DNA from: Pseudomonas sp. H3(2019) | Lineage (GTDB): Bacteria; Pseudomonadota; Gammaproteobacteria; Pseudomonadales; Pseudomonadaceae | NCBI RefSeq assembly: GCF_007713465.1 | Contig: NZ_VMSG01000013.1 | Coordinates: forward strand, 1-64,000 | Direction of reading: 5' to 3' | DNA length: 64,000 nt | In this document: one piece after another, positions 40,538-54,237 of the stretch | How the letters are laid out: each line of letters starts with the position of its first letter | How positions within the stretch are numbered: the first letter of the stretch is position 1 | Position numbers and translations under genes: made by a program | Notes under the pieces: generated by a model | The model's input: the letters and a program-made list of their open reading frames with translations, nothing else | Databases searched by the model: none | What the model was told of the DNA's origin: nothing

Positions 40538-41632
40538 ATGAGCGACAAGAAAGTAGCGTTGATTACGGGTATTACTGGTCAGGATGGTGCTTACCTTGCT
40601 GAGTTCCTGCTTAAAAAAGGTTATTCGGTCCACGGCATCAAGCGCCGTAGCTCTCTATTCAATACTCATCGTATTGATCATCTCTACCACGACCCGCACA
40701 ATCAAGGCTACGATCTCAAGCTGCATTATGGAGACCTGACCGATTCGAGCAGCTTGATTCGTATCGTGCAGGAAGTACAACCGGACGAAATCTACAACCT
40801 GGCCGCACAAAGCCACGTTGGTGTTTCCTTCGAAGCGCCAGAATATACTGCTGATACTGATGCTATGGGTACACTTCGCATTCTTGAAGCAATCCGCATC
40901 GCCGGGCTCGAGAAGAAGACCAAGTTCTATCAGGCATCCACATCCGAACTATACGGTCTGGTTCAGGAAATCCCACAGAAAGAAACCACGCCTTTCTATC
41001 CACGTTCCCCGTATGCCGTTGCCAAGCTGTACGCCTACTGGATTACCGTGAACTACCGCGAGTCATATGGCATGTATGCCTGCAACGGTATTCTCTTTAA
41101 CCATGAATCGCCGATCCGCGGTGAAACCTTCGTAACCCGCAAGATCACCCGTGCCTTGGCGCGTATCAAGCTGGATCTGCAAGACTGCCTGTACCTCGGC
41201 AATATGGACGCCCTGCGTGATTGGGGTCATGCCCGTGATTACGTGGAAATGCAATGGCTCATGCTGCAGCAAGAAACACCAGAAGATTTTGTGATTGCGA
41301 CCGGTGTTCAATACTCCGTTCGGCAGTTTGTTGACCTCGCGGCGAACGAAATCGGTATCAAGATTCGTTGGGAAGGTAAAGGTGTAGAAGAGAAAGGTTA
41401 CGACGTCGCAACCAACAAATGCATCGTTGCCGTCGACCCACGCTATTTCCGTCCCGCCGAAGTTGAGACCCTGCTGGGTGACCCAAGCAAAGCCAAAGCC
41501 AAGTTGGGCTGGGTGCCGGCGACTTCCTTCGCCGAGTTGGTAGCAGAAATGATGCGTGAAGACATGCGTGAAGCCGAACGCGACCAGTTGGTCGAGGCTC
41601 ACGGATACAAATACTTCAAAGGTCAAGAATAA
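40538..41632 (+). CDS. gmd: GDP-mannose 4,6-dehydratase
   Basis: A 364-residue extended SDR that turns GDP-D-mannose into GDP-4-keto-6-deoxy-D-mannose. The cofactor motif GITGQDG is at residues 11-17. The active site has Thr135 in QASTSELYG, Glu137, Tyr159 and Lys163 in YAVAK. The [15 protein letters not shown] and [18 protein letters not shown] segments are Gmd hallmarks. Its product is the branch point for D-rhamnose (Rmd), L-fucose (Fcl) and perosamine (Per); here per follows 11 bases later and no rmd or fcl is present. Confidence 0.96.
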
Positions 41633-41643
41633 AGGGGGCTGGG

Positions 41644-42729
41644 ATGATACCGGTATATCAGCCCTTTCTGGGCGGACGCGAAAAGGAATATGTAAACCAG
41701 TGTCTTGATTCGACCTGGATTTCTTCTCGCGGAGAATTTATCTCCCGCTTTGAGAGCGAGTTTGCCCGATACATCGGTGCAGAACATGCGACCACCGTGA
41801 GCAACGGCACGGTTGCTCTGCACCTGGCAATGGCTGCTTTGGGGCTTGGGCCTGGCGATGAGGTGATTGTTCCGACGCTTACTTACGTAGCGTCCGTCAA
41901 CACCATCATGCAAACCGGGGCCAGCGTTGTATACGCTGAATCCCTGGCTGATACCTGGAACGTCAGCGTTCCAGACATCCGCAGCCGCATAACGCCTAAA
42001 ACCAAGGCGGTCATGGTCGTGCACTTGTACGGCTTGGCGTGTGACATGGATGAAGTCGTTGCTCTGTGTAAAGAGCACAACCTGCTGCTGATCGAAGACT
42101 GTGCAGAAGCCTTTGGCTCTCTGTACAAAAATCAGCATGTAGGGACTTTTGGCGATGTCGCTACGTTCAGCTTCTTTGGAAACAAGACCATTACCACCGG
42201 TGAGGGTGGGATGGTGGTGTCCAAAAACAAGGCCGTTCACGAAAGAGCCTGCCACCTCAAAAGCCAAGGCGTGTCCAAGACTCGCGAGTACTGGCATGAC
42301 GAGTTGGCGTTCAACTATCGTATGACCAACATCTGCGCAGCCATTGGGCTTGCCCAGTTGGAACGTGCAGACGAGATCATCGCTCTTAAGCGGCAAGTTG
42401 CGGACTGGTATCGCGAAGCACTCGAAGGGCTTCCGCTGCAGATGCATGCAGAGCAGCCAGGTACACGTCACACCTACTGGATGTGCTCGGTGCTGCTGGA
42501 TGATCCGAGTCAGCGTCAGGCATTGCGTGATCATTTGAAGAGCAAAGGCATAGAGACACGCCCTCTGTTCGCTCCTGCTCACAACATGCCACATTGCAAG
42601 ACGGATGAAACCTTTCCGGTAGCGCAGGACCTTAGCTCCCGAGGGATGAACCTTCCGAGTTATCCGACACTGAGCCGCGAACAGGTGCAGCGGGTAGCAG
42701 ACGAGATTCGAAGCTACTTTGCCGACTAA
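41644..42729 (+). CDS. per: GDP-perosamine synthase (Per/RfbE family aminotransferase)
   Basis: A 361-residue PLP aminotransferase of the DegT/DnrJ/EryC1/StrS family. The N-terminal MIPVYQPFLGGREKEYVNQCLD, TTVSNGTVALHLAMAALGL, PTLTYVASVNTI and FFGNKTITTGEGGM (PLP Lys181) closely follow the Vibrio cholerae RfbE pattern as I recall it. It adds an amino group from glutamate to GDP-4-keto-6-deoxy-mannose to give GDP-D-perosamine. The neighbouring gmd supplies the substrate and the acetyltransferase at 48296 is the natural next enzyme. The gene ends two bases before the first possible wzm start and a hairpin follows. Confidence 0.92.
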   Translation: MIPVYQPFLGGREKEYVNQCLDSTWISSRGEFISRFESEFARYIGAEHATTVSNGTVALHLAMAALGLGPGDEVIVPTLTYVASVNTIMQTGASVVYAESLADTWNVSVPDIRSRITPKTKAVMVVHLYGLACDMDEVVALCKEHNLLLIEDCAEAFGSLYKNQHVGTFGDVATFSFFGNKTITTGEGGMVVSKNKAVHERACHLKSQGVSKTREYWHDELAFNYRMTNICAAIGLAQLERADEIIALKRQVADWYREALEGLPLQMHAEQPGTRHTYWMCSVLLDDPSQRQALRDHLKSKGIETRPLFAPAHNMPHCKTDETFPVAQDLSSRGMNLPSYPTLSREQVQRVADEIRSYFAD

Positions 42730-42738
42730 AATGCAGAA

Positions 42739-42766
42739 AATCGGGGTTGAGAAGTCAACCCCGATT
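42739..42766. terminator. Perfect hairpin between per and wzm
   Basis: AATCGGGGTTGA at 42739-42750 pairs perfectly with TCAACCCCGATT at 42755-42766 around GAAG. Four A precede it, so it reads as a terminator for the minus strand. On the plus strand only TT follows the stem, so it would be at most a partial attenuator between sugar synthesis and export genes. It lies exactly where the sequence turns AT-rich. Confidence 0.65.
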
Positions 42767-42835
42767 GCTAAGTGGAATTCAGAAAGTCAAGTTGAAACTG
42801 AATTTTTGGATTTAATTATTTACTCAGGTGAAAAG

Positions 42836-43618
42836 ATGTTTTCGTATTTTTCTCGTATATGGGATGCCCGATATTTTTGGATGCATCTTGCTCTTGCTGA
42901 CCTTCGATCAAGATGGAGGCGGTCTTTTTTTGGTGTGACATGGTCAATTATCCAGCCACTGGGATTGACATTGCTATTGACGTTGGTTTTCAGCAGACTT
43001 TTTAACACTGATATTGTTACATATGCGCCTTATATTCTCTCCGGGATTATTGTATGGGAGTATATCTCTGCTAATACCATGGGGGGGTCTCTATCTTTTG
43101 TTCAGGCCGATTCCTATATTAAGCAGTGTAATCATCCCCTCGCTATTTATACACTACGTTCGGTTATTGGAAGCTTAATCATTTTATTGTTGGCCAGTAT
43201 CTCTCTGTATGGATGGGTTGCGGTTGTTTTGCCACAAAATATCGGGTGGTGCTGGTTAGCAACGCTTACGATCTATCCGATATTGGCCCTGATAGCATGG
43301 CCAGTTTCAACGTTGCTGGCCTACATCAGTACGAGGTTTCGAGATGTTCCTCATGCTCTTGGCTTGGTAATGCAATCATTGTGGTTCGTTTCCCCTGTCT
43401 ATTTTGAAGCGAAAATGTTCAAGAATGGGGGGCTGCATGCATTGGTGGATTACAACCCGATTTATCATGTTTTACAGTTGATTCGCGCTCCTTTGTTGCA
43501 AGGCGAATGGCCAACACTTGAAAACTATATGTTTAGTCTGGGGGCGGCAGTTTTCTTTGCGTTGATCGCTATCTTGGTTGGTTATAAGTCTGAGCGTAAG
43601 GTCATTTTTTACCTATGA
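42836..43618 (+). CDS. wzm: O-antigen ABC transporter permease Wzm
   Basis: A 260-residue ABC-2 type membrane protein with about six helices, the size of Wzm/RfbA. N-terminal features are WMHLALADLRSRWRRSFFGVTWSIIQPL, the amphipathic start typical of polysaccharide exporters, and the C-terminal half has YNPIYHVLQLIRAPLLQG. The ATG at 42836 follows AGGTG with a five-base spacer and gives the family length. An in-frame ATG at 42731 would translate the hairpin and add 35 residues without similarity. With Wzt it moves lipid-linked polysaccharide across the inner membrane. It overlaps wzt by four bases. Confidence 0.9.
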   Translation: MFSYFSRIWDARYFWMHLALADLRSRWRRSFFGVTWSIIQPLGLTLLLTLVFSRLFNTDIVTYAPYILSGIIVWEYISANTMGGSLSFVQADSYIKQCNHPLAIYTLRSVIGSLIILLLASISLYGWVAVVLPQNIGWCWLATLTIYPILALIAWPVSTLLAYISTRFRDVPHALGLVMQSLWFVSPVYFEAKMFKNGGLHALVDYNPIYHVLQLIRAPLLQGEWPTLENYMFSLGAAVFFALIAILVGYKSERKVIFYL

Positions 43619-44367
43619 AAAATAATAAGATAACTCTTGAGAATGTTAATCTTCACTACGCTTCGGTTGCTTATAAAGAACGTTCGCTAAAATCATTAAT
43701 GGCAAGTGCTTTTAGCCGGCGCTCAACGTCCTCCACGGTGGCAGATATTCATGCGCTGAAAAATGTGTCGGTTGAAATTTCGAGCGGTGAAAGAGTAGGG
43801 TTGCTAGGGCATAATGGTGCAGGTAAAAGTACCTTTCTTAAAACAGTCGCTGGTCTGTACCCTATTTCCAGCGGCAAGCTGACTGTAGATGGGCAAATAC
43901 GTTCCTTGTTTGATCTTAGCTTGGGCTTTGAACCTGATGCTACCGGTAGAGAGAATATTCTATACCGCGGATTATTGTTAGGTTTATCACCTCGGTTTAT
44001 GCGAGGGATGGAAGCGGAAATTGTTGAATTTGCCGGACTGGGAGAGTTTATTGATTATCCAATGAAAACCTACTCCGCCGGCATGCAAGTAAGATTGGCA
44101 TTCGCCATCTCAACAACAGTCGGAGGAGATATTCTTCTTCTCGATGAAGTTATTGGGGCTGGGGATGCGAATTTTATGGTTAAGGCCAAAGAGCGTATTA
44201 CCAGCTTGATCGAGCGTGCGGAAATACTTGTTCTTGCCTCCCATGATTTGGGATCTTTAAAAGCCATTTGTAATCGTGGGTTAGTCTTTCATCATGGCTC
44301 GCTCATTTTTGATGGTAGCTGTGTCGATGCTATTGATGAGTACAAAAAAGCAAATGGGCTATCTTGA
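43615..44367 (+). CDS. wzt: O-antigen ABC transporter ATPase Wzt (short form)
   Basis: A 250-residue ATPase of the polysaccharide exporter. Walker A GHNGAGKST is at residues 65-73, the signature is TYSAGMQVRL, Walker B is ILLLDEVIGAGD and the switch region is LASHDLG. The family-specific N-terminal insert YASVAYKERSLKSLM precedes the ATPase core. The protein ends about 245-250, so it lacks the C-terminal carbohydrate-binding domain present in Wzt proteins that recognise a modified chain end. That places it with the short Wzt class. It overlaps wzm and the next gene. Confidence 0.92.
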   Translation: MKNNKITLENVNLHYASVAYKERSLKSLMASAFSRRSTSSTVADIHALKNVSVEISSGERVGLLGHNGAGKSTFLKTVAGLYPISSGKLTVDGQIRSLFDLSLGFEPDATGRENILYRGLLLGLSPRFMRGMEAEIVEFAGLGEFIDYPMKTYSAGMQVRLAFAISTTVGGDILLLDEVIGAGDANFMVKAKERITSLIERAEILVLASHDLGSLKAICNRGLVFHHGSLIFDGSCVDAIDEYKKANGLS

Positions 44368-46655
44368 TGCTAAATAACGCCTTTAGGGTTTTGTGGCTCT
44401 TGAATAAAAAAGAGCTGCGTGAATCAGATGTTGCTCAACTAAAGTCTGTGGGCGTGACGGAATTTTTTATGCCAAAAAAATTTCCGGCGACTCCGTACAA
44501 TTTATCAGATGATATAGATTTTAGTTATGATGACTCTCTGAGTATTCCAGTTTCTGATCTTGAAGTTCTAAATAGACAAAACTGGTATGAAGATCCAAGT
44601 GATGAGGCTTGGGGGATAGTAAATCGTTATTTTGATGTTGCATTCGTAGGCAGTCATGCACAACAACTATTAGCTGCGCTCAAGGGGTTTGGCGGCGCTA
44701 TAGTTTTGAGGGGGGCGGGTTTTTTAGATGGAAAGTCTTATTCGGACGCTCTGCATAATGATCTTGGAGAGGACGGAGTTTACAGGCTAAAGGCGGTCGG
44801 TAATCGTCTTTGGTTTGGAGCCTTTCATGCGCATCAGGCCAAAGCTGAGATGAATTATTTGAGCAGGCGTCTTTGTTGCTTGCCTGTGGAGTATGCCTTT
44901 AAATCTTCGGATGGTTATTCGAATCGTCAGATAAATAATGTATTATTTTTCTGTCCGAATATAAATGTATCAGAGTTTTCGTTAGGGTTATATAAGAATT
45001 TTTTAGCTGATTTTAAGGGCTTTGACTATTCGGTTGCGGGGCAGCAGCCTATAGCCGTTGATGCTGATAATATCATCGGTGAAATAAATTTTGAGTCCAA
45101 GGACTGTATTTCCAATCAATATAAAGTCATGTTTTATGATTCGACGGTATCTAACCGTATTGATGATATGCCCCTGCGTGCAATGCGGTCTGGAATAGCA
45201 CTGGTATTTATGGCTGGCGGTATGCTTGACGATTTGGGTGGCATTAAGTCTCCAGGTCGTTCCAAGACTATAGAGGAAGCCAGAAAAAAAATTAGGCGAA
45301 TCCTTGAAGGTGATAATGAGTTTATCGCTTCAATTATTGATAACCAAAAAAAAATCCTCGACAAGTTCTCAACCGTTGTAGTTAGTCAGCAATGGAGGAG
45401 AGGTTGGGCTGATATTACTAATGAGCTAGAAGCTATCCGAGCTCAAAATGCCGAGCGACCCAAAAAGCGGAAACGTATTGCCATTATTGTCCCTGTGAAG
45501 TATAGAGGCGGGAGTCTGCGCGGGACGAAAATGTTGGCCCAAGCATTATATATAGGCAGCCGGCAAGGCGGTGAAGACGTTGACGTGGTGATTTGCCACC
45601 TGGATGATAAGGAAAGTTATTCTAGGGATACATTTGATGATATCGACGCTAATATTAAAATTCGTCCCTATAAATGGCGAACGCTGGATGCGATTGAGGC
45701 TCGTCGGGCCATGCGATATTCTGGGCAGCAAGGTTGGGAGCCGATCCATAGTAAATATGTAGCTCCTGATGATGGTATCAAACAGCTGGTCGACTGTGAT
45801 TTGTGGATTGTCATATCCGATCGGCTTGAGGCGCCACTACTGCCTATAAAACCAACCATATATATGGTTTACGATTATTTACAACGCTATGAGCCTATTC
45901 TTACCAAGGGGGCTGATGCGGTTTTTTTGGATGCTGTTAGAGTGTCTAAGAAGGTTTTTGTTACTACAAACTTCACGAAGTTTGATGCATTGCAGTACGC
46001 GGGTGTAAGTGCAGGAAAAGTTGTCGTGATGCCAATGTTAGTGCCGGAATTTTGGAAAGAGTCGGTTATTAAGACTGAGAAGGGATTACCGTATTTTATC
46101 TGGACGACAAATGCTAATCAGCACAAAAATCATGTTAATGCACTCAAAGCTCTGAGGATCTACTACGAAGAGTACGGTGGTTCGCTGTCTTGTCATGTGA
46201 CAGGGGTAGGCACCGAAAATTTACTTAAAAGTGATATGCCTCATCTGAAACCGCTCGCTAAGCTGGTCAAAGGTAGTCCTTTGTTGAGCAGGCGTATGAG
46301 ATTGCTTGGTGAGCTTTCAGAGAGTCAATATATTGATACATTGGCGAACTCTCGATTTTTATGGCATGCCGGAAAAATTGATAATGGTACGTTCAGTGTT
46401 ATCGAGGCCGCTTGCGTGGGAATCCCATCATTGAGCAGTGATTATCCTGCGATGCACGAAATAGACGCTCGATTCTCTTTAAATTTGACCTGGATGAACT
46501 CGGGTGATCCAAAGGACATGGCGAAAAAATTAAAGTACATGGAAGAAAATTATTTTAACTTGACAGCGAAACTCCCTTCTAAAGAAAAACTGGCGCAGAA
46601 TGATCTTGTAAATTTTGCAGTGAAGTATTGGGATGAGGTTCGGGTATGTCTGTAA
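44367..46655 (+). CDS. Large two-part glycosyltransferase
   Basis: A 762-residue protein. The C-terminal half (from about residue 370, starting RIAIIVPVKYRGGSLRGTKMLAQAL) is a GT-B fold glycosyltransferase of the GT4 type, with the acceptor/donor loop WHAGKIDNGTFSVIEAACVGIPSLSSDYPAMHEI near the end. The N-terminal ~365 residues show no motif I can name; a second glycosyltransferase or a polymerase partner is possible. It starts at ATG 44367, overlapping the wzt stop by one base, and overlaps the next gene by ten. Codon use is AT-rich throughout. It likely adds perosamine residues in the cytoplasm. Confidence 0.8.
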   Translation: MLNNAFRVLWLLNKKELRESDVAQLKSVGVTEFFMPKKFPATPYNLSDDIDFSYDDSLSIPVSDLEVLNRQNWYEDPSDEAWGIVNRYFDVAFVGSHAQQLLAALKGFGGAIVLRGAGFLDGKSYSDALHNDLGEDGVYRLKAVGNRLWFGAFHAHQAKAEMNYLSRRLCCLPVEYAFKSSDGYSNRQINNVLFFCPNINVSEFSLGLYKNFLADFKGFDYSVAGQQPIAVDADNIIGEINFESKDCISNQYKVMFYDSTVSNRIDDMPLRAMRSGIALVFMAGGMLDDLGGIKSPGRSKTIEEARKKIRRILEGDNEFIASIIDNQKKILDKFSTVVVSQQWRRGWADITNELEAIRAQNAERPKKRKRIAIIVPVKYRGGSLRGTKMLAQALYIGSRQGGEDVDVVICHLDDKESYSRDTFDDIDANIKIRPYKWRTLDAIEARRAMRYSGQQGWEPIHSKYVAPDDGIKQLVDCDLWIVISDRLEAPLLPIKPTIYMVYDYLQRYEPILTKGADAVFLDAVRVSKKVFVTTNFTKFDALQYAGVSAGKVVVMPMLVPEFWKESVIKTEKGLPYFIWTTNANQHKNHVNALKALRIYYEEYGGSLSCHVTGVGTENLLKSDMPHLKPLAKLVKGSPLLSRRMRLLGELSESQYIDTLANSRFLWHAGKIDNGTFSVIEAACVGIPSLSSDYPAMHEIDARFSLNLTWMNSGDPKDMAKKLKYMEENYFNLTAKLPSKEKLAQNDLVNFAVKYWDEVRVCL

Positions 46656-48274
46656 AAAACTATGGAATTTACCTCTCCTACCCACCTGGTGTCGACCTGC
46701 GTCATGAGGGATTGGGTCGCTACCTGGCCGCATTCTTAAAAGGGACTTCTGGGCGGGATGATGTCCATTTTGTATTGGTTTGCCCAAGCTGGTCGAAAAA
46801 AAGCCTAGAAGAATTATTTCTGAGTGAGGGTGTTCAAAAGAATCGATTCGAGGTTGTTTCTCCAAATAAGGAACCATTAATTTTAAAGTTGTACGAAGCG
46901 TATTTGAGATATAAGAAACGTGCAAAAAAACCTACAATTATCGATCGGGTTTTAGGTGCGTTTTCGTGGGGTTACAAAAAAATTACAGACTATCTTGAAG
47001 CACGTTTGATAGCGGCTCATTCCGTTTCTAGTTTGATTCCATTGTTGTTGATTGGCGTTTTCGGGGCTCTTCTGTTTTTATTGTGTAGTCCGCTTTTGGT
47101 ACCTGTTATATTGCTTGTTGCGCTCTCAAAAATGACTTTTTTTGTCAAGAGAGTAACCCGGCCATTATCAAGGAGAATTTTTCGTCTTAAGGCGGTTTTG
47201 AGTGCGCCAAAGGAAGATGCTTTGATTTTAAGGCTGTATAAAGGGATGGAAAGTGTTGAGTCAAAAAGGATGCTGGAGTTGATTGATAGTCTATCTCATG
47301 TCTTGGCATGGTATAGCCCAACTGCCTTTTGGCCTGCGTTCAATGATATTAAAGCGCCTAAGCTGATGTGTATCCCGGATGTGGTGCTTACAGACTTCCC
47401 CGTTGGGTTTTCCAACGTCGGAGGGGAAAGATTTTTGAGGGTGTTTGGTGAAATCGAAGAGACTATTTACGCGGGCCAGAACTATGTGACTTACAGTGGT
47501 GCTGTGAAGTGGGATACGCTGGTTGATCGTTACGCTATTAATCCGTCCAAGGTTTCAGTTATTCATCATGCACCTAATAGTTTAAATAAATGGGTTGAAG
47601 TCACTGGTGGGGTGAATCCAGAGGAGGCCTCCCATAGTCTTTGTTTGGATCTGTTCAGGAAAGCCTTGCTCAAATCAGTTGACTCTAAACATTTGGCTAC
47701 GTTTTCTAACCCTGAAGCTGGTTTTTTATTTTATGCGAGCCAAATTAGACCTAATAAAAATGTTCTGTCGTTACTCCGGGCCTATGAATACCTGCTTCGT
47801 AGTAAATTTATTGGGCATAAGTTAATTCTTACAGGTAATCCGAATGGAATGGCGGATGTCATAAAATTTATCAAGGATAATTTCCTGGAAAATGATGTTT
47901 TATGCCTTCATAGTCTGACAGTTCAAGAATTGGCTGCATGTTATAAGTTGGCGGACCTGGCGGTGAATCCAAGCCTGAGTGAGGGGGGATGTCCCTTTAC
48001 CTTTACTGAAGCATTGTCAGTAGGTACACCTGTGGCAATGGCCAGGATTGCGGTTGCTGAGGAGGTATTAAATGATGATGAGGTTCAGGAACTGACATTC
48101 TTTGATCCCTATGACTGGAAGGATATGGCGAAACGTATTCAACTGTCATTGCACAATCGTGAGGAAGTTCTAGCTGTTCAAACGCAATTTTATAAAAAGT
48201 TGAGTTTGCGCTCATGGACTGATGTCGTTAACGAGCACGTCGATGTGTTAGATAGTATTTCTAGTCGTGATTAG
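46646..48274 (+). CDS. Glycosyltransferase with an inserted membrane hairpin
   Basis: A 542-residue GT4-like protein. The N-terminus has GVDLRHEGLGRYLAAFLKG, a donor-site type glycine segment. The C-terminal catalytic part has FYASQIRPNKNVLSLLRAYEYL and NPSLSEGGCPFTFTEALSVGTPV, a standard E-x7-E loop. Between them, at about residues 129-168, is a roughly 40-residue hydrophobic stretch flanked by lysines and arginines, long enough for two membrane helices, which is unusual inside a GT-B fold. It is probably anchored to the inner membrane near the Wzm/Wzt exporter. Strongly AT-rich. Confidence 0.8.
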   Translation: MSVKNYGIYLSYPPGVDLRHEGLGRYLAAFLKGTSGRDDVHFVLVCPSWSKKSLEELFLSEGVQKNRFEVVSPNKEPLILKLYEAYLRYKKRAKKPTIIDRVLGAFSWGYKKITDYLEARLIAAHSVSSLIPLLLIGVFGALLFLLCSPLLVPVILLVALSKMTFFVKRVTRPLSRRIFRLKAVLSAPKEDALILRLYKGMESVESKRMLELIDSLSHVLAWYSPTAFWPAFNDIKAPKLMCIPDVVLTDFPVGFSNVGGERFLRVFGEIEETIYAGQNYVTYSGAVKWDTLVDRYAINPSKVSVIHHAPNSLNKWVEVTGGVNPEEASHSLCLDLFRKALLKSVDSKHLATFSNPEAGFLFYASQIRPNKNVLSLLRAYEYLLRSKFIGHKLILTGNPNGMADVIKFIKDNFLENDVLCLHSLTVQELAACYKLADLAVNPSLSEGGCPFTFTEALSVGTPVAMARIAVAEEVLNDDEVQELTFFDPYDWKDMAKRIQLSLHNREEVLAVQTQFYKKLSLRSWTDVVNEHVDVLDSISSRD

Positions 48275-48295
48275 AGTTTGTCGGAGGTTTTTTTG

Positions 48296-48931
48296 ATGGT
48301 CCAAGTATCAGGTCTGCTTATTCTCGGGTTTGGCGGTCATGCTCGTAGTGTGGCGGATGTGGCGTTGGCGTCGGGATTTAAAACTCTTTGTTTCATAGAT
48401 AGTAATGCTCGCCCAAACGAATGTTTGGGTGAATTTCCAGTGAAAACAGATTGGCACGGTGCGCTCCCTGAAGGTTGGGTGGTTATGCCTGGAGCGGGTG
48501 ACAACAATAAACGTCAAGATCAATGTGACTGGATCATTGAGCGTGGCTGGCCTCTGGCCACGCTTATCTCTCCGGCCGCGACGATAGGTTTTGGTGCTAC
48601 GGTTGGTCTCGGAACCCTAGTAGCGCATCATGCTCATATTGGCCCTATGGCCTCTGTTGGGAGAGGTTGTATTGTAAATACAGGAGCCATTATTGAGCAT
48701 GAATGCGTCGTAGATGACTTTACTCATGTTTCTATAAAAGCAGCTGTGGCGGGAAGATCCCGTATCGGACGTCTTTGCTTCATTGGCGCTGGCTCGACTG
48801 TTATTGACGGTATTCGTCTCTCCGATGGTGTCACGTTGGGAGCAGGCGCCTGCGCACATCGTGATCTGGAAGAGCCGGGAGTTTATGTTGGCGTGCCGGC
48901 GAAAAAAGTGATAGGGAAAATACAGAATTGA
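48296..48931 (+). CDS. PglD/PerB-like sugar N-acetyltransferase
   Basis: A 211-residue acetyltransferase of the NeuD/PglD group. The N-terminal nucleotide-sugar-binding half begins LLILGFGGHARSVADVALASG. The C-terminal left-handed beta-helix (about residues 95-205) shows hexapeptide repeats and the catalytic-type histidines His135 in GAIIEHECVVDDF and His144. In perosamine loci the equivalent enzyme (PerB) transfers acetyl from acetyl-CoA to the 4-amino group of GDP-perosamine. UDP-linked substrates cannot be excluded. The ATG at 48296 follows GGAGG. Its stop overlaps the next start. Confidence 0.85.
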   Translation: MVQVSGLLILGFGGHARSVADVALASGFKTLCFIDSNARPNECLGEFPVKTDWHGALPEGWVVMPGAGDNNKRQDQCDWIIERGWPLATLISPAATIGFGATVGLGTLVAHHAHIGPMASVGRGCIVNTGAIIEHECVVDDFTHVSIKAAVAGRSRIGRLCFIGAGSTVIDGIRLSDGVTLGAGACAHRDLEEPGVYVGVPAKKVIGKIQN

Positions 48932-50037
48932 AAGTTCTCCATTTCTTTAAAACCTATTATCCGCAAACCATGGGGGGGGTTGAACAAGTCATCTTTCAGC
49001 TTGCGGAAGGGGGAAGAGAACATGGGATTACTGCGCAAGTACTTTCTCTGAGCGCACAAGGGGCTGCACGTAACGTAAAGGTTGGTGAGCACTTGGCTCA
49101 CACGTCAAAGCTAGACCTGCATTTAGCCTCCACTGGCTTTTCGTTGTCAGCCTTTAAGGACTTTTCCGAGTTGGCCAGGGAGGCCGACATCATCAACTAT
49201 CATTTTCCATGGCCGTTCATGGATGTAGTTCATTTTGTGTCGCGTGTACGTAAGCCCACGGTTGTTAGTTATCACTCGGATATTGTTAAGCAAAAGACGC
49301 TGTTGAAGTTGTATCAGCCGTTGATGCACGGCTTTTTGGGCAGCGTAGATCGTATTGTTGCGTCATCTCCAAAGTATGTAGAGAGTAGCCCGACGCTCCA
49401 AAGGTTTAAGGACAAAGTCACGGTTATTCCTATTGGCTTGGATCGGAATACTTATCCGCCTGTTTCATCGGAAAAGTTGAGCTATTGGAAAGAGAAATTA
49501 CCCCCGCGCTTTTTTCTTTTTATTGGCGCTCTACGCTACTATAAGGGATTGGATTATCTACTTGAGGCGGCTCGTACGGCTCGGTTTCCGATCGTTATTT
49601 TGGGGCAGGGACCGATGGAGGCCGAGCTGAAGGCTAAGGCCAGAAAATTGGGTCTTTCCAATATATATTTTCTTGGCGGCTTGCCCGACGATGATAAAAT
49701 TGCATTGTTAATGCTGTGCTATGGCCTGGTGTTTCCCTCTCATCTTCGTTCTGAAGCATTTGGTATTTCACTTCTTGAAGCTGCCATGTTTGGTAAGCCC
49801 CTTATTTCCTGCGAGATCGGCACAGGCACGACTTACATAAATATTGCCGGTGAGACAGGACTGGTCGTTCCCCCCAGCGATTCAGGTGCACTGGCGCAGG
49901 CAATGATCAGGTTATGGGAAAATCCTGAAGAGAGTAGTGCAATGGGGCACCGGGCCGCATTGCGTTTCGAACAGGTATTTACAGCAGAACGAATGGTTGA
50001 CTCTTACGCAGAGGTTTATCGTTCTTTGTTGAGGTGA
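48928..50037 (+). CDS. WbpZ-like family 4 glycosyltransferase
   Basis: A 369-residue GT4 enzyme whose start MKVLHFFKTYYPQTMGGVEQ and the segments HLASTGFSLSAFKDFSELAREADI, YHFPWPFMD and SYHSDIVKQKTLLKLYQPLMHGFL follow WbpZ/WbpY of the P. aeruginosa common polysaccharide antigen as I recall it. The catalytic E-x7-E is in RSEAFGISLLEAAMFGKP. The start is TTG at 48928, overlapping the previous stop (TTGA); no better codon lies nearby. It probably adds the first 6-deoxy-sugar to the lipid carrier or links the chain to the primer. Confidence 0.88.
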   Translation: MKVLHFFKTYYPQTMGGVEQVIFQLAEGGREHGITAQVLSLSAQGAARNVKVGEHLAHTSKLDLHLASTGFSLSAFKDFSELAREADIINYHFPWPFMDVVHFVSRVRKPTVVSYHSDIVKQKTLLKLYQPLMHGFLGSVDRIVASSPKYVESSPTLQRFKDKVTVIPIGLDRNTYPPVSSEKLSYWKEKLPPRFFLFIGALRYYKGLDYLLEAARTARFPIVILGQGPMEAELKAKARKLGLSNIYFLGGLPDDDKIALLMLCYGLVFPSHLRSEAFGISLLEAAMFGKPLISCEIGTGTTYINIAGETGLVVPPSDSGALAQAMIRLWENPEESSAMGHRAALRFEQVFTAERMVDSYAEVYRSLLR

Positions 50038-50136: not shown

Positions 50137-51108
50137 ATGATCCCCAAGTCTATTCTAGTTACTGGTGGTTCCGGCTTTTTAGGAAAAGCTATTGTTCAGC
50201 GTCTTGCATTGATGGAGGCATTCTATCTCGTAGTGCCTCTCAGAGCGCTCAGCAAGGATCTGCCCGAGGGGGTGAAAACCATAAAAATTTCCGATATTGA
50301 TGGTCAAACCAACTGGAAAAAGATACTCGATAACGTAGACATTGTGGTGCACGCTGCCGCCAGGGTTCATGTGATGCGCGAGCAGGCTCCTGATGCCCTT
50401 GCTGCGTTTCGTAAAGTGAATGTCGAGGGTACTTTGAATCTCGCTCGACAGGCCGCCGACGCCGGAGTCAAACGCTTCATCTTCATCAGTTCTATCAAGG
50501 TAAACGGAGAAGGTACGTTGACGGGGGAGCCTTACACTGCAGATGATGTTCCGGCTCCCAAGGATCCATATGGCATCTCCAAGCTTGAGGCGGAGCAGGG
50601 TTTGAGAGCTCTTGCGACAGCTACCGGTATGGAGACAGTGGTTATTCGTCCCGTCCTTGTCTATGGCCCCGGCGTAAAAGCTAATTTTCTGAGTATGATG
50701 CGCTGGCTTTATAGAGGTATACCGTTGCCTTTTGGTGTTGTTCGGAATCGTCGTAGTCTGATCTTCCTGGATAATCTTGTAGATTTCGTAGTGACCTGCC
50801 TCGATCATCCAGCCGCAGCCAACCAAACATTTCTGGCGAGCGACGGTGACGATGTTTCTACTTCTGAGCTGTTGCGTAAGCTTGCCAGGTGTCTGGGGAA
50901 ATCGGCCCGTCTAATGCCCGTGCCCGTTTGGTTAATGAGCGCAGTGGCAACTATGCTGAGCAAGCAGGCCCTTGCTCAACGTCTTTTCGGGTCCTTGCAG
51001 GTTGATATCAGCAAAAATCAACAGCTACTGGGCTGGACTCCGCCAGTCAGTCTTGATGATGCCCTGAACCTGACGGCTCAACACTTTCTGGATGCTCGAA
51101 GATCATGA
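50137..51108 (+). CDS. wbpV: UDP-4-keto-6-deoxy-HexNAc reductase, WbpV-like SDR
   Basis: A 323-residue extended SDR. The NAD(P) motif is VTGGSGFLGKAI, followed by VVHAAARVHVMRE; the active site has ISSIKVNGEGT and YGISKLEAEQ; RPVLVYGPGVKANFLSMMRWL is typical of WbpV/WbpK-type proteins. These reduce the WbpM product, giving UDP-QuiNAc (WbpV) or UDP-FucNAc (WbpK). The two cannot be told apart reliably by eye. The ATG at 50137 is used; a TTG at 50104 is also open. It ends in a four-base overlap with wbpL. GC content returns to the genome norm here. Confidence 0.85.
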   Translation: MIPKSILVTGGSGFLGKAIVQRLALMEAFYLVVPLRALSKDLPEGVKTIKISDIDGQTNWKKILDNVDIVVHAAARVHVMREQAPDALAAFRKVNVEGTLNLARQAADAGVKRFIFISSIKVNGEGTLTGEPYTADDVPAPKDPYGISKLEAEQGLRALATATGMETVVIRPVLVYGPGVKANFLSMMRWLYRGIPLPFGVVRNRRSLIFLDNLVDFVVTCLDHPAAANQTFLASDGDDVSTSELLRKLARCLGKSARLMPVPVWLMSAVATMLSKQALAQRLFGSLQVDISKNQQLLGWTPPVSLDDALNLTAQHFLDARRS

Positions 51109-52133
51109 GTTACGGGTGGTTCATTCCGGTCATTGCCGGCGTCTCGTTTTTGCTGACAGCGGCATTGCGTAAATATGCGTTGTCCCGAAGCCTGATGGAC
51201 ATTCCCAATGCCCGAAGCTCTCACTCGGTTCCCACGCCACGTGGTGGTGGTGTGGCGATCGTTCTGGGGGTTCTGTTGGCGCTGGGACTTTTGTTTTTTG
51301 CCGGGATCATTTCTTCGTCGGATTTCCTGGCGATTGCCGGTGCTGGAGCTGCGATCGCGGTTATCGGCTTCATGGATGACCATGGGCACATTGCAGCCCG
51401 CTGGCGCTTGTTAGGGCACTTTGGTGCAGCAGGGTGGTTGCTGTTCTGGCTCGGCGGCTTGCCTGCTGTCGAATTGGGTGGCATCTCGCTCAACCTGGGA
51501 TGGCTGGGGCATGTTCTGGCACTGTTTTATCTGGTGTGGTTGCTTAATCTCTACAACTTCATGGACGGTATTGATGGTATCGCCAGCCTTGAGGCTATCT
51601 GTGTTTGCCTCGGTGCCTGTCTTATCTACTGGATGGCGGGACTTGAGAGTCTAATTTGGGCTCCATTGTTATTGGCCATTGCGGTCGCTGGCTTTCTTTA
51701 CTGGAACTTCCCCCCTGCGCGGATTTTCATGGGCGATGCCGGCAGCGGGTTTCTCGGCATCGTGCTGGGCGGGTTTTCTCTACAAGCTGCGTGGGTTAGT
51801 GCACCGATGCTTTGGGCGTGGCTGATTTTGCTTGGGGTGTTTATCGTCGATGCGACATTCACGCTGTTTCGCCGATTGCTCAGGGGGGACAAGGTCTACG
51901 AAGCGCATCGCAGTCATGCTTATCAGTTTGCCTCTCGCCATTTTGGCAGGCATCTGCCCGTTACCCTTGCTGTTGGCCTGATCAATCTATTCTGGTTGTT
52001 GCCCATTGCCGTGTGTGTGACACGCTATGGTCTGGACGGTGCCTTGGGGGTGATTCTGGCTTACGCACCCTTGCTTGTGCTGGCGGTCAAGTTTCGCGCC
52101 GGAGATCTGGAAGTCCCGGCGGTGAAGAACTAA
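51105..52133 (+). CDS. wbpL: WbpL-type undecaprenyl-phosphate sugar-1-phosphate transferase
   Basis: A 342-residue polytopic inner-membrane enzyme of the WecA/MraY family. It has about ten helices, SLMDIPNARSSHSVPTPRGGGVAI, the catalytic FMDD segment, NLYNFMDGIDGIASLEA and FMGDAGSGFLG. It starts O-antigen synthesis by moving QuiNAc-1-P, FucNAc-1-P or GlcNAc-1-P to undecaprenyl phosphate. In P. aeruginosa WbpL primes both the heteropolymer and the ABC-exported common antigen, so it fits a primer role for the perosamine chain here. It overlaps wbpV by four bases. Confidence 0.93.
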   Translation: MSYGWFIPVIAGVSFLLTAALRKYALSRSLMDIPNARSSHSVPTPRGGGVAIVLGVLLALGLLFFAGIISSSDFLAIAGAGAAIAVIGFMDDHGHIAARWRLLGHFGAAGWLLFWLGGLPAVELGGISLNLGWLGHVLALFYLVWLLNLYNFMDGIDGIASLEAICVCLGACLIYWMAGLESLIWAPLLLAIAVAGFLYWNFPPARIFMGDAGSGFLGIVLGGFSLQAAWVSAPMLWAWLILLGVFIVDATFTLFRRLLRGDKVYEAHRSHAYQFASRHFGRHLPVTLAVGLINLFWLLPIAVCVTRYGLDGALGVILAYAPLLVLAVKFRAGDLEVPAVKN

Positions 52134-52242
52134 GCGACAATTACTCTGTCATTTAGGTTTAAAGTGATCGCGAAGCGTCTTTGAGGTTTCACTTTGGGGA
52201 TTGGGTAGTTGAAGGGAGAGAACTGAGGTGTTTGAAGGGTTT

Positions 52243-54237
52243 ATGGATAAAATCAGAGCATATCTGGTAGGGCTCCCCCGGCGCCAAAAAAGGTTGATAC
52301 AGGTTGCCACAGACACCGTTCTGGTCTGGGTCGCCTTGTGGTTGGCTTTTATCGTGCGTCTGGGCATCGACGATATGTACAACCCTTTCAAGGTCCACTT
52401 CTGGCTTTTTGCTTGCGCACCAGTGATCGCCATCCCTCTCTTTATCCGCTTCGGCATGTACCGTGCAGTCATGCGCTATTTTGGCAACGAAGCCCTCATT
52501 GCTATCGTCAAGGCTGTCAGTCTGTCATCGCTGATTCTGGCAGTGGTTGTCTATTGGTACAGTAATCACCAAACCGTGGTGCCGCGCTCTATCATCTTTA
52601 ACTACTGGTGGCTCAGCTTGGTCATCATCGGAGGCCTACGCCTGTGCATGCGCCAGTATTTCATGGGGGACTGGTTCACTGCTGCTCAGCACGTACCGTT
52701 CACCAATCGTGATGACGGCTTGACCAAAGTTGCTATCTACGGTGCAGGTGTCGCGGGCAATCAGCTTGTCGCTGCGCTTCGCATGGGGCGGGTGATGCGG
52801 CCTGTGGCCTTCATCGATGACGATGCGAGTATCGCGGATCGCTCTATTTCAGGCCTGCAGGTCTACAAGCCCAAGCATATTCAGCAGATGATCGATGTCA
52901 CCGGCGCGCAGGAAATTCTTCTGGCGCTGCCGTCATCCACGCGAGCACGACGTAGGGAAATTCTGAATCTTCTGGAAGGCTTCCCGCTTCACATACGTAG
53001 CGTTCCGAATTTCACTGACCTGGCCAGTGGTCGGGTGAAGGTCGAGGATATTCAGGAAGTCGACATTGCCGACTTGCTGGGGCGTGACTCGGTACCGGCT
53101 CAGCCTGATTTGCTGGAGCGTTGTATCAAGCGCAAAACGGTCATGGTGACCGGTGCGGGCGGTTCTATCGGCGCGGAGCTTTGTCGACAAATTTTTTCTC
53201 TTGGTCCTACGACGCTAATCCTGTTTGAGCACAGCGAGTTCAATCTTTACAGCATTCTTTCCGAGTTGGAGAAACGAGCCAGTCGTGAATCCCTGTCTGT
53301 TCGTCTGCTGCCTATCCTCGGTTCTATCCGGCATCAGGACAAGCTCCTGGATGTGATGAAAACCTGGAAGGTGGACACGGTTTACCACGCGGCGGCCTAC
53401 AAGCATGTGCCGATGGTCGAGCACAATATCGCCGAAGGCGTGTTGAACAATGCGATGGGTACGCTCAATACCGCACAAGCCGCCTTGCAATCAGGTGTTG
53501 CCAACTTTGTGCTGATCTCCACCGACAAAGCCGTGCGTCCGACCAATGTGATGGGCAGTACCAAGCGTTTGGCCGAAATGACGCTGCAGGCACTCAGTCG
53601 CGAGATTGCGCCGGTATTGCTGGGTGACAAGGCCAATGTATCGCGCGTCAACAAGACCCGCTTCACGATGGTGCGCTTTGGTAATGTGCTGGGCTCCTCC
53701 GGTTCGGTGATCCCGTTGTTCCATAGCCAGATCAAGTCGGGTGGACCATTGACCGTCACTCACCCGAAGATCACGCGTTACTTCATGACCATTCCCGAAG
53801 CAGCACAACTGGTGATTCAGGCCGGCTCGATGGGGCAGGGTGGTGACGTGTTCGTACTGGACATGGGTGAGCCGGTGAAGATTGTCGAACTGGCGGAAAA
53901 AATGATTCACCTGTCCGGTTTGAGTGTGCGCTCGGACAGGAATCCTCAAGGCGACATCGCCATCGAATTTACGGGCCTGCGCCCTGGCGAGAAGCTTTAC
54001 GAAGAGTTATTGATCGGCGATAACGTCGCGGCGACTCAGCACCCAATGATCATGAGTGCCAATGAAGATCATCTGCCTTGGGACGTGCTCAAGACGCGGC
54101 TGACCGAGCTACTCGGAGCTGTTGAGCGGGATGACTACTCACGGGTTCGTCAGTTGTTACGCGAAACTGTCAGTGGCTACACCCCCGACGGCGATATCGT
54201 CGACTGGATCTACCAGCAACGCCGCCTCGAGCCCTGA
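52243..54237 (+). CDS. wbpM: UDP-GlcNAc 4,6-dehydratase WbpM
   Basis: A 664-residue membrane-bound dehydratase. Four N-terminal helices are followed by a Rossmann domain (YGAGVAGNQLVAAL) and the catalytic SDR domain from about residue 295 (GAGGSIGAELCRQI at 304). The catalytic triad has Met437 in MGSTK where other SDRs have Tyr, as in P. aeruginosa WbpM. It makes UDP-4-keto-6-deoxy-GlcNAc for WbpV. The ATG at 52243 gives MDKIRAYLVGLPRR, like known WbpM starts; a GTG at 52228 with a good GGGAG site is a real alternative. It closes the O-antigen locus. Confidence 0.94.
   Translation: MDKIRAYLVGLPRRQKRLIQVATDTVLVWVALWLAFIVRLGIDDMYNPFKVHFWLFACAPVIAIPLFIRFGMYRAVMRYFGNEALIAIVKAVSLSSLILAVVVYWYSNHQTVVPRSIIFNYWWLSLVIIGGLRLCMRQYFMGDWFTAAQHVPFTNRDDGLTKVAIYGAGVAGNQLVAALRMGRVMRPVAFIDDDASIADRSISGLQVYKPKHIQQMIDVTGAQEILLALPSSTRARRREILNLLEGFPLHIRSVPNFTDLASGRVKVEDIQEVDIADLLGRDSVPAQPDLLERCIKRKTVMVTGAGGSIGAELCRQIFSLGPTTLILFEHSEFNLYSILSELEKRASRESLSVRLLPILGSIRHQDKLLDVMKTWKVDTVYHAAAYKHVPMVEHNIAEGVLNNAMGTLNTAQAALQSGVANFVLISTDKAVRPTNVMGSTKRLAEMTLQALSREIAPVLLGDKANVSRVNKTRFTMVRFGNVLGSSGSVIPLFHSQIKSGGPLTVTHPKITRYFMTIPEAAQLVIQAGSMGQGGDVFVLDMGEPVKIVELAEKMIHLSGLSVRSDRNPQGDIAIEFTGLRPGEKLYEELLIGDNVAATQHPMIMSANEDHLPWDVLKTRLTELLGAVERDDYSRVRQLLRETVSGYTPDGDIVDWIYQQRRLEP

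Follow-up and report, generated by a model that had tools for sequence, protein, structure and literature searches.

The window analysed here, a stretch of 64,000 nucleotides from Pseudomonas sp. H3(2019) (contig NZ_VMSG01000013.1, positions 1 to 64,000 of the forward strand), encodes a 542-residue glycosyltransferase (46646-48274, + strand, ATG start) with an internal hydrophobic segment that, judged from its sequence, is very probably embedded in the membrane and anchors the enzyme. The best explanation of the observations as a whole, to which about an even chance is given, is that a GT-B enzyme carries a re-entrant hairpin in its acceptor domain, and that this hairpin offers a foothold to a second glycosyltransferase of 763 residues encoded next to it.

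A hydrophobic segment with basic flanks in the 542-residue glycosyltransferase

The reading frame 46646-48274 is uninterrupted and contains no internal stop. Residues 126-161 (47021-47128) form a run of 36 amino acids free of D, E, K, R, N, Q and H (polar-free run), and a run of this length was obtained in 3 of 10,000 composition shuffles. The best Kyte-Doolittle windows of 19 residues (KD19) cover residues 127-145 (2.49) and 142-160 (2.86), and the next separate window in the protein reaches 1.23. The segment is flanked by a variable basic helical region (residues 81-125, 46886-47020; net charge +7) and a second variable basic region (residues 162-205, 47129-47260), with a net charge of +9 over residues 162-200. 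Within 25 residues of the run, the N-terminal side has 4 K/R and 2 D/E and the C-terminal side 8 K/R and no D/E. The initial annotation had described a stretch of about 40 hydrophobic residues near 129-168 with basic flanks; stretch and flanks were recovered, and its end has to be moved back from 168, as K162 and K168 lie outside the run.

Among the 14 proteins of the same genome matched by PF00534 (Glycos_transf_1), the 542-residue protein has the highest KD19 (2.86), with the other 13, one of whose frames was cut by the fetched stretch, at 1.07-2.17. The best relative at each locus contains the segment in 19 of 19 loci with a maximal KD19 of 2.36-3.24, compared with 2.16-2.69 for the permease Wzm (18 loci), at most 1.63 for the 763-residue glycosyltransferase (19 loci) and at most 1.50 for a 369-residue GT4 glycosyltransferase of the same cluster (15 loci).

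The segment is predicted to lie inside the N-terminal domain

Pfam detects the C-terminal domain alone in the 542-residue protein (PF00534 at residues 355-507, E = 5.9e-19; score 68.7 bits, cut-off 26.4). An AlphaFold2 (AF2) model was built from an alignment of 16 family sequences and its strands were assigned by DSSP. The model, with a mean predicted local distance difference test score (pLDDT) of 74.1 and a predicted template modelling score (pTM) of 0.68, contains two Rossmann-like domains. When it was compared with the PDB using VIA-align, in which rows at most 1 Z apart count as tied, 6eji ranked first (Z 28.3, root mean square deviation 3.8, 350 residues aligned), and MshA, BshA, PimA and WaaG were among the 50 matches listed. 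The entry 6EJI is PglH with UDP-GalNAc (PMC5792488).

Predicted strands at residues 4-9, 40-45 and 68-71 are followed by helices alone over residues 78-215 and then by strands at 219-224, 239-242, 279-282 and 303-305, with the C-terminal domain starting at about residue 360. The seven N-terminal strands of the model equal in number those of PglH (PMC5792488), and therefore the segment is placed inside the N-terminal domain, between strands 3 and 4. Part 1 of this Rossmann domain comprises residues 1-80 (46646-46885; GLGRY loop at 22-26, predicted β1-β3) and part 2 residues 206-310 (47261-47575; predicted β4-β7). In the model, the insertion of about 125 residues is thus located in the acceptor-side domain, between β3 and β4, and not between the N- and C-terminal GT-B halves, where the initial annotation had put it. 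It apparently occupies the place of the membrane-binding helix α2 of PglH and PimA, if, as we assume, α2 follows strand 3 in both enzymes. The structure prediction that the initial annotation had proposed as a check thus returned a GT-B fold; it set the segment among the helices of residues 78-215 as two helices at 127-146 and 148-161, where the confidence is low (pLDDT block means about 52-66).

Sequence comparisons reached the C-terminal half of the protein. Searching the PDB with the family profile yielded six matches, all of them weak (best E 9.1e-5) and none beginning before profile position 349. When the profile was aligned with a short GT4 enzyme using hhalign, the C-terminal domain alone was aligned, with a probability of 18%, and a residue-level mapping of the insertion was not obtained. 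Retaining GT4 enzymes contain an E-x7-E motif. In the C-terminal nucleotide-sugar-binding domain (residues 357-542, 47714-48271), E446 and E455 are invariant in the 16 rows with eight residues between them (E446-x8-E455, 47981-48010), one more than in that motif; the 369-residue GT4 protein has E276-x7-E284. From sequence and model, the 542-residue protein is taken to be a retaining GT4-type glycosyltransferase with a predicted GT-B fold and a presumed, as yet putative, sugar specificity that is considered below with the gene cluster.

Hydrophobicity and a central proline are conserved in the family

In total, 22 family sequences were compared, 16 of them in the alignment used for the model (A1) and six (L038, L039, L040, L041, L054 and the cut L055) only in a script alignment; L040 and L054 are identical in sequence. 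The hydrophobic segment is kept in all 22. A sequencing artefact was rejected, since 21 other sequences carry the segment. Over the 16 rows, mean pairwise identity is 65% for residues 1-80, 62% for 201-310 and 70% for 357-530, with 44% in the linker 311-356, 32-35% in 81-200 and 32% in the hairpin. Hydrophobicity is therefore kept while the sequence drifts, as expected for a lipid-facing element rather than for a buried core. Of the two flanks, the one after the run is basic throughout, with 5-9 K/R among its first 25 residues in all 21 full-length sequences. The region corresponding to residues 81-125 carries a net charge of +6 to +9 in 16 of 16 rows, but the 25 residues directly before the run vary more, with 2-6 K/R in 15 of these 21.

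The most conserved column of residues 85-187 is P149, which is Pro in 21 of the 22 sequences, and in 14 of 15 after collapse at at least 70% identity; in L034 the Pro is found one residue later. It is preceded by Ser in 13 of 22 sequences, by Ala and Thr in three each, and by Ile, Leu and Phe in one each. S148-P149 (47087-47092) is presumed to be the helix-breaking centre of the segment. In PglC, the re-entrant helix is broken at a Ser-Pro pair. A branched residue is likewise frequent ahead of the Pro, and it has been proposed that re-entrant domains can be recognised by helix breakers together with preceding positive charges (Entova 2018, PMC6133551). The conserved helix-breaking residue that this study describes for an N-terminal hydrophobic domain is found here in an internal one.

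Comparison with the hairpin of PF02397 proteins

As a reference set, the 30 best-scoring matches to PF02397 were used, a family whose re-entrant topology is taken from the family literature. The polar-free run is 20-24 residues long in 29 of these proteins and 33 in one; Pro is found at run position 12-14 in all 30, and Asp or Glu directly precedes the run in 19. In the 542-residue family, Pro is at run position 12-14 in 14 of 22 sequences, 12 of which also have Asp or Glu directly before the run. After collapse these counts become 9 and 7 of 15 (70% identity) or 7 and 5 of 13 (60%). For comparison, 124 other hydrophobic runs were taken from mechanically called frames of at least 150 codons in the same loci and the window (at least 20 residues, mean Kyte-Doolittle value above 1.5; 45 of 189 runs had been dropped before the count with a mean of at most 1.5). 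Pro at position 12-14 was found in 15 of these, and Pro together with the acidic residue in none.

Neither the 542-residue protein (searched to E 0.01) nor any of three relatives (searched to E 5) was matched by PF02397 itself. The likeness to the PF02397 hairpin, seen at the level of sequence, may be explained by similar physics, and common descent is not claimed.

The 763-residue glycosyltransferase is the constant neighbour

The gene for the 763-residue glycosyltransferase (44364-46655, + strand) overlaps the start of the 542-residue gene by 10 bases, and it lies directly upstream of the latter in 20 of 20 loci; in L040, whose record begins there, its last part is present. Of the 20 loci, 19 have a match to a DegT aminotransferase and 18 one to a NeuD-type acetyltransferase; Wzm and Wzt are likewise present in 18. 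The 763-residue protein has no hydrophobic segment (maximal KD19 1.38 in the window, 1.01-1.63 over 19 loci). Its AF2 model (mean pLDDT 81.1, pTM 0.59) shows a GT-B module at residues 368-763 (best Z 28.0, root mean square deviation 3.4, 342 aligned). Residues 1-366 alternate between strands and helices in the model and might form a second GT-B module, which is a guess. A PDB sequence search with the 763-residue profile gave a best E of 0.0096.

In the alignment of this protein (A2), in which rows L049 and L050 start one codon before the likely ATG and so gain one residue, D673 (invariant, 17 rows) and E681 (at least 90%) stand at E-x7-E spacing (window 46380-46406), so that an Asp may take the place of the first Glu.

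The constant pairing of a soluble-looking glycosyltransferase with an apparently anchored one suggests that the latter may recruit the 763-residue enzyme to the membrane, in the way in which WbdD recruits WbdA (PMC11231755).

In contrast to this invariant pairing, the position of the exporter genes varies. In the genome G757, the Wzm/Wzt exception that is not due to the end of a record, the best Wzt match (39% identity) lies on the same contig at a distance of about 190 kb. Beside it are a WecA-like protein and a Wzm-like one (20.5% identity, seven hydrophobic segments); the hairpin is kept in G757 regardless. L049 (4112-11617) is rearranged, with wzm, wzt, the NeuD gene and the GT4 gene first and then the 763-542 pair. 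In 19 of 19 loci where it was found, Wzt is 248-264 residues long, too short for a carbohydrate-binding domain. The L041 frame of 371 residues represents an upstream extension; its match starts at residue 122, from which the length was counted.

Topology and function of the segment

In the proposed mechanism, the 36-residue segment, broken at Ser148-Pro149, would dip into the cytoplasmic leaflet and emerge on the same side, with the basic residues at the lipid head groups, much like the re-entrant helix of monotopic phosphoglycosyl transferases. The hairpin would hold the acceptor groove at the membrane, the site of undecaprenyl-pyrophosphate-linked chains, and the protein would be the probable membrane foothold of the soluble 763-residue glycosyltransferase. 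A single crossing is unlikely because residues 1-80 and 206-310 form one predicted Rossmann domain, from which it also follows, on the model, that both ends of the segment would be cytoplasmic. Two full membrane crossings need about 40 residues. In 13 of the 22 sequences, the polar-free run around the Pro is 21-28 residues long, which is short for two full transmembrane helices; a re-entrant hairpin is therefore favoured.

Several observations weigh against this interpretation. Runs of at least 30 residues are found in 9 of 22 sequences, and the short runs (at most 28), which after collapse make up 8 of 15 sequences at 70% identity and 6 of 13 at 60%, are concentrated in close relatives. The window protein itself is among the eight sequences without Pro at run position 12-14, it has no acidic residue before the run, and its 36 polar-free residues would suffice for a tight spanning hairpin. 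Six of the 21 full-length sequences have only 0-1 K/R within the 25 residues that precede the run. The model is weak precisely at the hairpin, with the pLDDT block means given above. The assignment to the place of α2 depends on counting strands in the model and on the assumed position of α2 after strand 3 in PglH and PimA.

Two short transmembrane helices might thus pass through the inner membrane and back, the Pro sitting at a tight periplasmic turn and both enzyme halves in the cytoplasm; the function as an anchor would be unchanged. Besides the run of 36 residues in the window protein, runs of 30-38 residues in L032, L035, L038, L039, L040, L041, L054 and L055 are consistent with such a spanning hairpin; collapse at 70% identity leaves 7 of 15 sequences with such long runs, and KD19 exceeds 2.4 for both halves of the segment. 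However, in 11 of the 13 sequences with runs of 21-28 the run is bounded by a Glu (Glu-x12-Pro), and spanning would require either that this Glu be buried or helices of about 12 residues. The spanning geometry is therefore given a real chance, though one clearly short of even, and the re-entrant one is considered somewhat the more probable of the two. Very improbable, by comparison, is a soluble enzyme whose larger N-terminal domain contains the segment as part of its hydrophobic core. The AF2 model, which sets the segment among several insertion helices (78-215), would allow this; it is opposed by a hydrophobicity no lower than in the Wzm helices, the low sequence conservation of the segment, the strongly basic flank after it and the 13 other PF00534 proteins of the genome, none of which has a window this hydrophobic.

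The initial annotation had placed the anchor beside Wzm. Conserved hydrophobicity, drifting sequence, the basic side and the apparently α2-like position give the anchor good support at the level of sequence. The siting at Wzm is not supported, given that the invariant neighbour is the 763-residue glycosyltransferase and given the arrangement in G757. If the hairpin bound Wzm within the bilayer, which either geometry would permit, the enzyme would be placed at the exporter and chain growth coupled to export. This would agree with Wzm and Wzt sharing the stretch with the hairpin gene in 18 of 20 loci, and with a Wzt lacking the carbohydrate-binding domain; in the Klebsiella pneumoniae O2a system, a transporter of this type is obligatorily coupled to chain extension (PMC11231755). 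Apart from the Pro, however, the segment lacks the sequence conservation expected of an interaction surface; in G757 the hairpin is present with exporter genes about 190 kb distant and a Wzm of 20.5% identity, and in L049 the NeuD and GT4 genes separate the exporter genes from the 763-542 pair. Binding to Wzm is consequently held to be improbable. A physical contact between the hairpin enzyme and Wzm is possible in so far as gene distance is compatible with it, and, by analogy with the O2a system, a coupling of synthesis and export is possible for the cluster. The preferred explanation is still a re-entrant hairpin that serves the 763-residue glycosyltransferase.

The surrounding gene cluster

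All genes of the cluster are on the + strand. It contains gmd for GDP-mannose 4,6-dehydratase (40538-41632, TIGR01472 above cut-off), a DegT-family aminotransferase (41644-42729, PF01041, E 5.8e-123), the ABC-2 permease Wzm (42719-43618; PF01061, E 7.7e-11; NF050109 below its cut-off) and Wzt (43615-44367), which with 250 residues consists of the ATPase and is too short for the C-terminal carbohydrate-binding domain. The pair of glycosyltransferases is followed by a sugar acetyltransferase of the NeuD/PglB/VioB family (48278-48931, TIGR03570 above cut-off) and the 369-residue GT4 glycosyltransferase (48928-50037, PF00534, E 3.2e-32). The aminotransferase is a probable perosamine synthase (per), a name given from the neighbouring genes; among its best 25 of 28 matches no NCBIfam model scored above its own cut-off. 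After the cluster, a WecA-like protein (51105-52133) and a 669-residue Polysacc_synt_2 protein (52228-54237), which we take to be WbpM-like, are encoded.

Since gmd, the DegT aminotransferase, Wzm and Wzt are all present together, as in a perosamine O-antigen cluster with export by an ATP-binding cassette (ABC) transporter, the cluster looks, by its gene content, like one for an O-antigen of the N-acylperosamine type exported by an ABC transporter without carbohydrate-binding domain. The donor is likely an N-acylated perosamine nucleotide, acetylated or formylated, as we infer from gmd, the aminotransferase and the acyltransferase, and the 542-residue protein is probably a participant in building the surface sugar chain. 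In G757 (1.3 Mb; L053 11676-12455, L067), the pair is followed by a formyltransferase (PF00551, E 6.6e-24) in place of the NeuD-type acetyltransferase, and a similar-looking protein after the pair in G823 was named formyltransferase-like by eye only. No WbdD-like scaffold was seen among the 10 cluster proteins scanned, in which no profile search aimed at WbdD was made.

Distribution of the family

Near full-length relatives were found in 4 of 95 related genomes, the own genome included, and any match in 19 of 95; the matches beyond those four cover the C-terminal part alone. Relatives were present in 12 of 398 genomes of the genus (the own genome and 11 others), in 3 of 398 genomes of a phylum sample (two of which are the own genome and another member of the genus), in 1 of 369 genomes of a class sample (the own genome) and in 2 of 131 genomes around G757. 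They were further identified in a Proteobacteria soil metagenome-assembled genome (MAG), Acidovorax radicis, an Enterobacterales MAG and an Alphaproteobacteria MAG, and in G757 and G823, whose copy is cut by the contig end. All near full-length matches carry the insertion, and among them no relative with the same N-terminal domain and without the insertion was seen.

Plasmids of Bradyrhizobium, Citrobacter and E. coli also encode relatives. Eight of 15 matching plasmid records cover most of the query, with 46.1-47.3% identity, and of these three entered the comparison and five were left out. A DNA-level search of E. coli genomes with the window gave no matches; with the E. coli plasmid homologue as query, 4 of 5,426 E. 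coli genomes matched, two of them chromosomally. Of these four E. coli genomes, which match over nearly the full length, one entered the comparison and three were left out; plasmid pCP53-92k is counted in both sets. None of 27 stretches of viral contigs that matched a pattern encodes a relative.

On the IncY plasmid pCP53-92k (L039) the cluster occurs together with galF, and on a conjugative Citrobacter plasmid (L040) with gndA and hisIE, all usually markers of the chromosomal locus; insertion sequences (IS) are nearby in both. The chromosomal relative of E. coli NT1F34 (L054) lies beside fis/dusB, between IS elements.

Discussion

Membrane contact through the N-terminal domain of GT-B enzymes (PMC5792488), re-entrant helices in other enzymes of glycan and lipid A synthesis (PMC6133551) and membrane-binding hydrophobic regions of Alg2 (PMC8827073) have already been described in these papers. 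Searches confined to the open literature turned up no published description of a Pro-broken hydrophobic insertion in a bacterial GT4 enzyme; the re-entrant helix of PMC10653937 belongs to a phosphoglycosyl transferase. It could be proposed that a hairpin of the phosphoglycosyl transferase kind arose inside a GT-B acceptor domain, where it would form the lipid side of the acceptor groove for undecaprenyl-pyrophosphate chains and the membrane platform of a polymerase of the 763- and 542-residue enzymes, replacing a WbdD-type scaffold where the exporter has no carbohydrate-binding domain; in this extended form the proposal is conceivable but doubtful.

Such O-antigens raise two questions: how soluble-looking GT-B enzymes gain access to lipid-linked acceptors, and how chain growth and export are linked for an ABC transporter lacking a carbohydrate-binding domain. 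As the conserved hairpin offers a single clear candidate for the break residue and its gene has the same glycosyltransferase neighbour at all loci examined, both questions are testable with few mutants. If the segment is re-entrant, a GT-B family joins the enzymes with such helices, which topology predictors often call transmembrane.

Among known enzymes, PglH of Campylobacter jejuni (6eji) and PimA resemble the 542-residue protein in their GT-B fold and in contacting the membrane through the N-terminal domain, and the polyprenyl-linked acceptor of PglH is also expected here. PglH attaches to the membrane by the long amphipathic ruler helix α2 with its basic residues, and PimA has a similar helix (PMC5792488). 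Unlike this single amphipathic surface helix, the insertion described here is about 125 residues long, and its strongly hydrophobic segment, broken by a Pro, is predicted to enter the bilayer. With the monotopic phosphoglycosyl transferases (PglC/WcaJ, PF02397), the protein shares a hydrophobic stretch, a central (Ser-)Pro, a similar spacing in 14 of 22 sequences and flanking positive charges (PMC6133551), but its element lies inside a GT-B domain and has no PF02397 match.

Alg2 of the eukaryotic lipid-linked oligosaccharide pathway, which we take to be a GT4 enzyme with its hydrophobic segment between β3 and β4, is similar in having a membrane-binding hydrophobic region, a likeness drawn by description only. 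The N-terminal hydrophobic region of human Alg2 binds the membrane without crossing it, and that of the yeast protein spans it twice (PMC8827073). Finally, in the WbdA/WbdD system and in WbbM/N/O of K. pneumoniae O2a, as in the present cluster, export is by Wzm/Wzt and the polymerase must reach the membrane (PMC11231755). In contrast to WbdA/WbdD, the membrane foothold would here be built into a glycosyltransferase.

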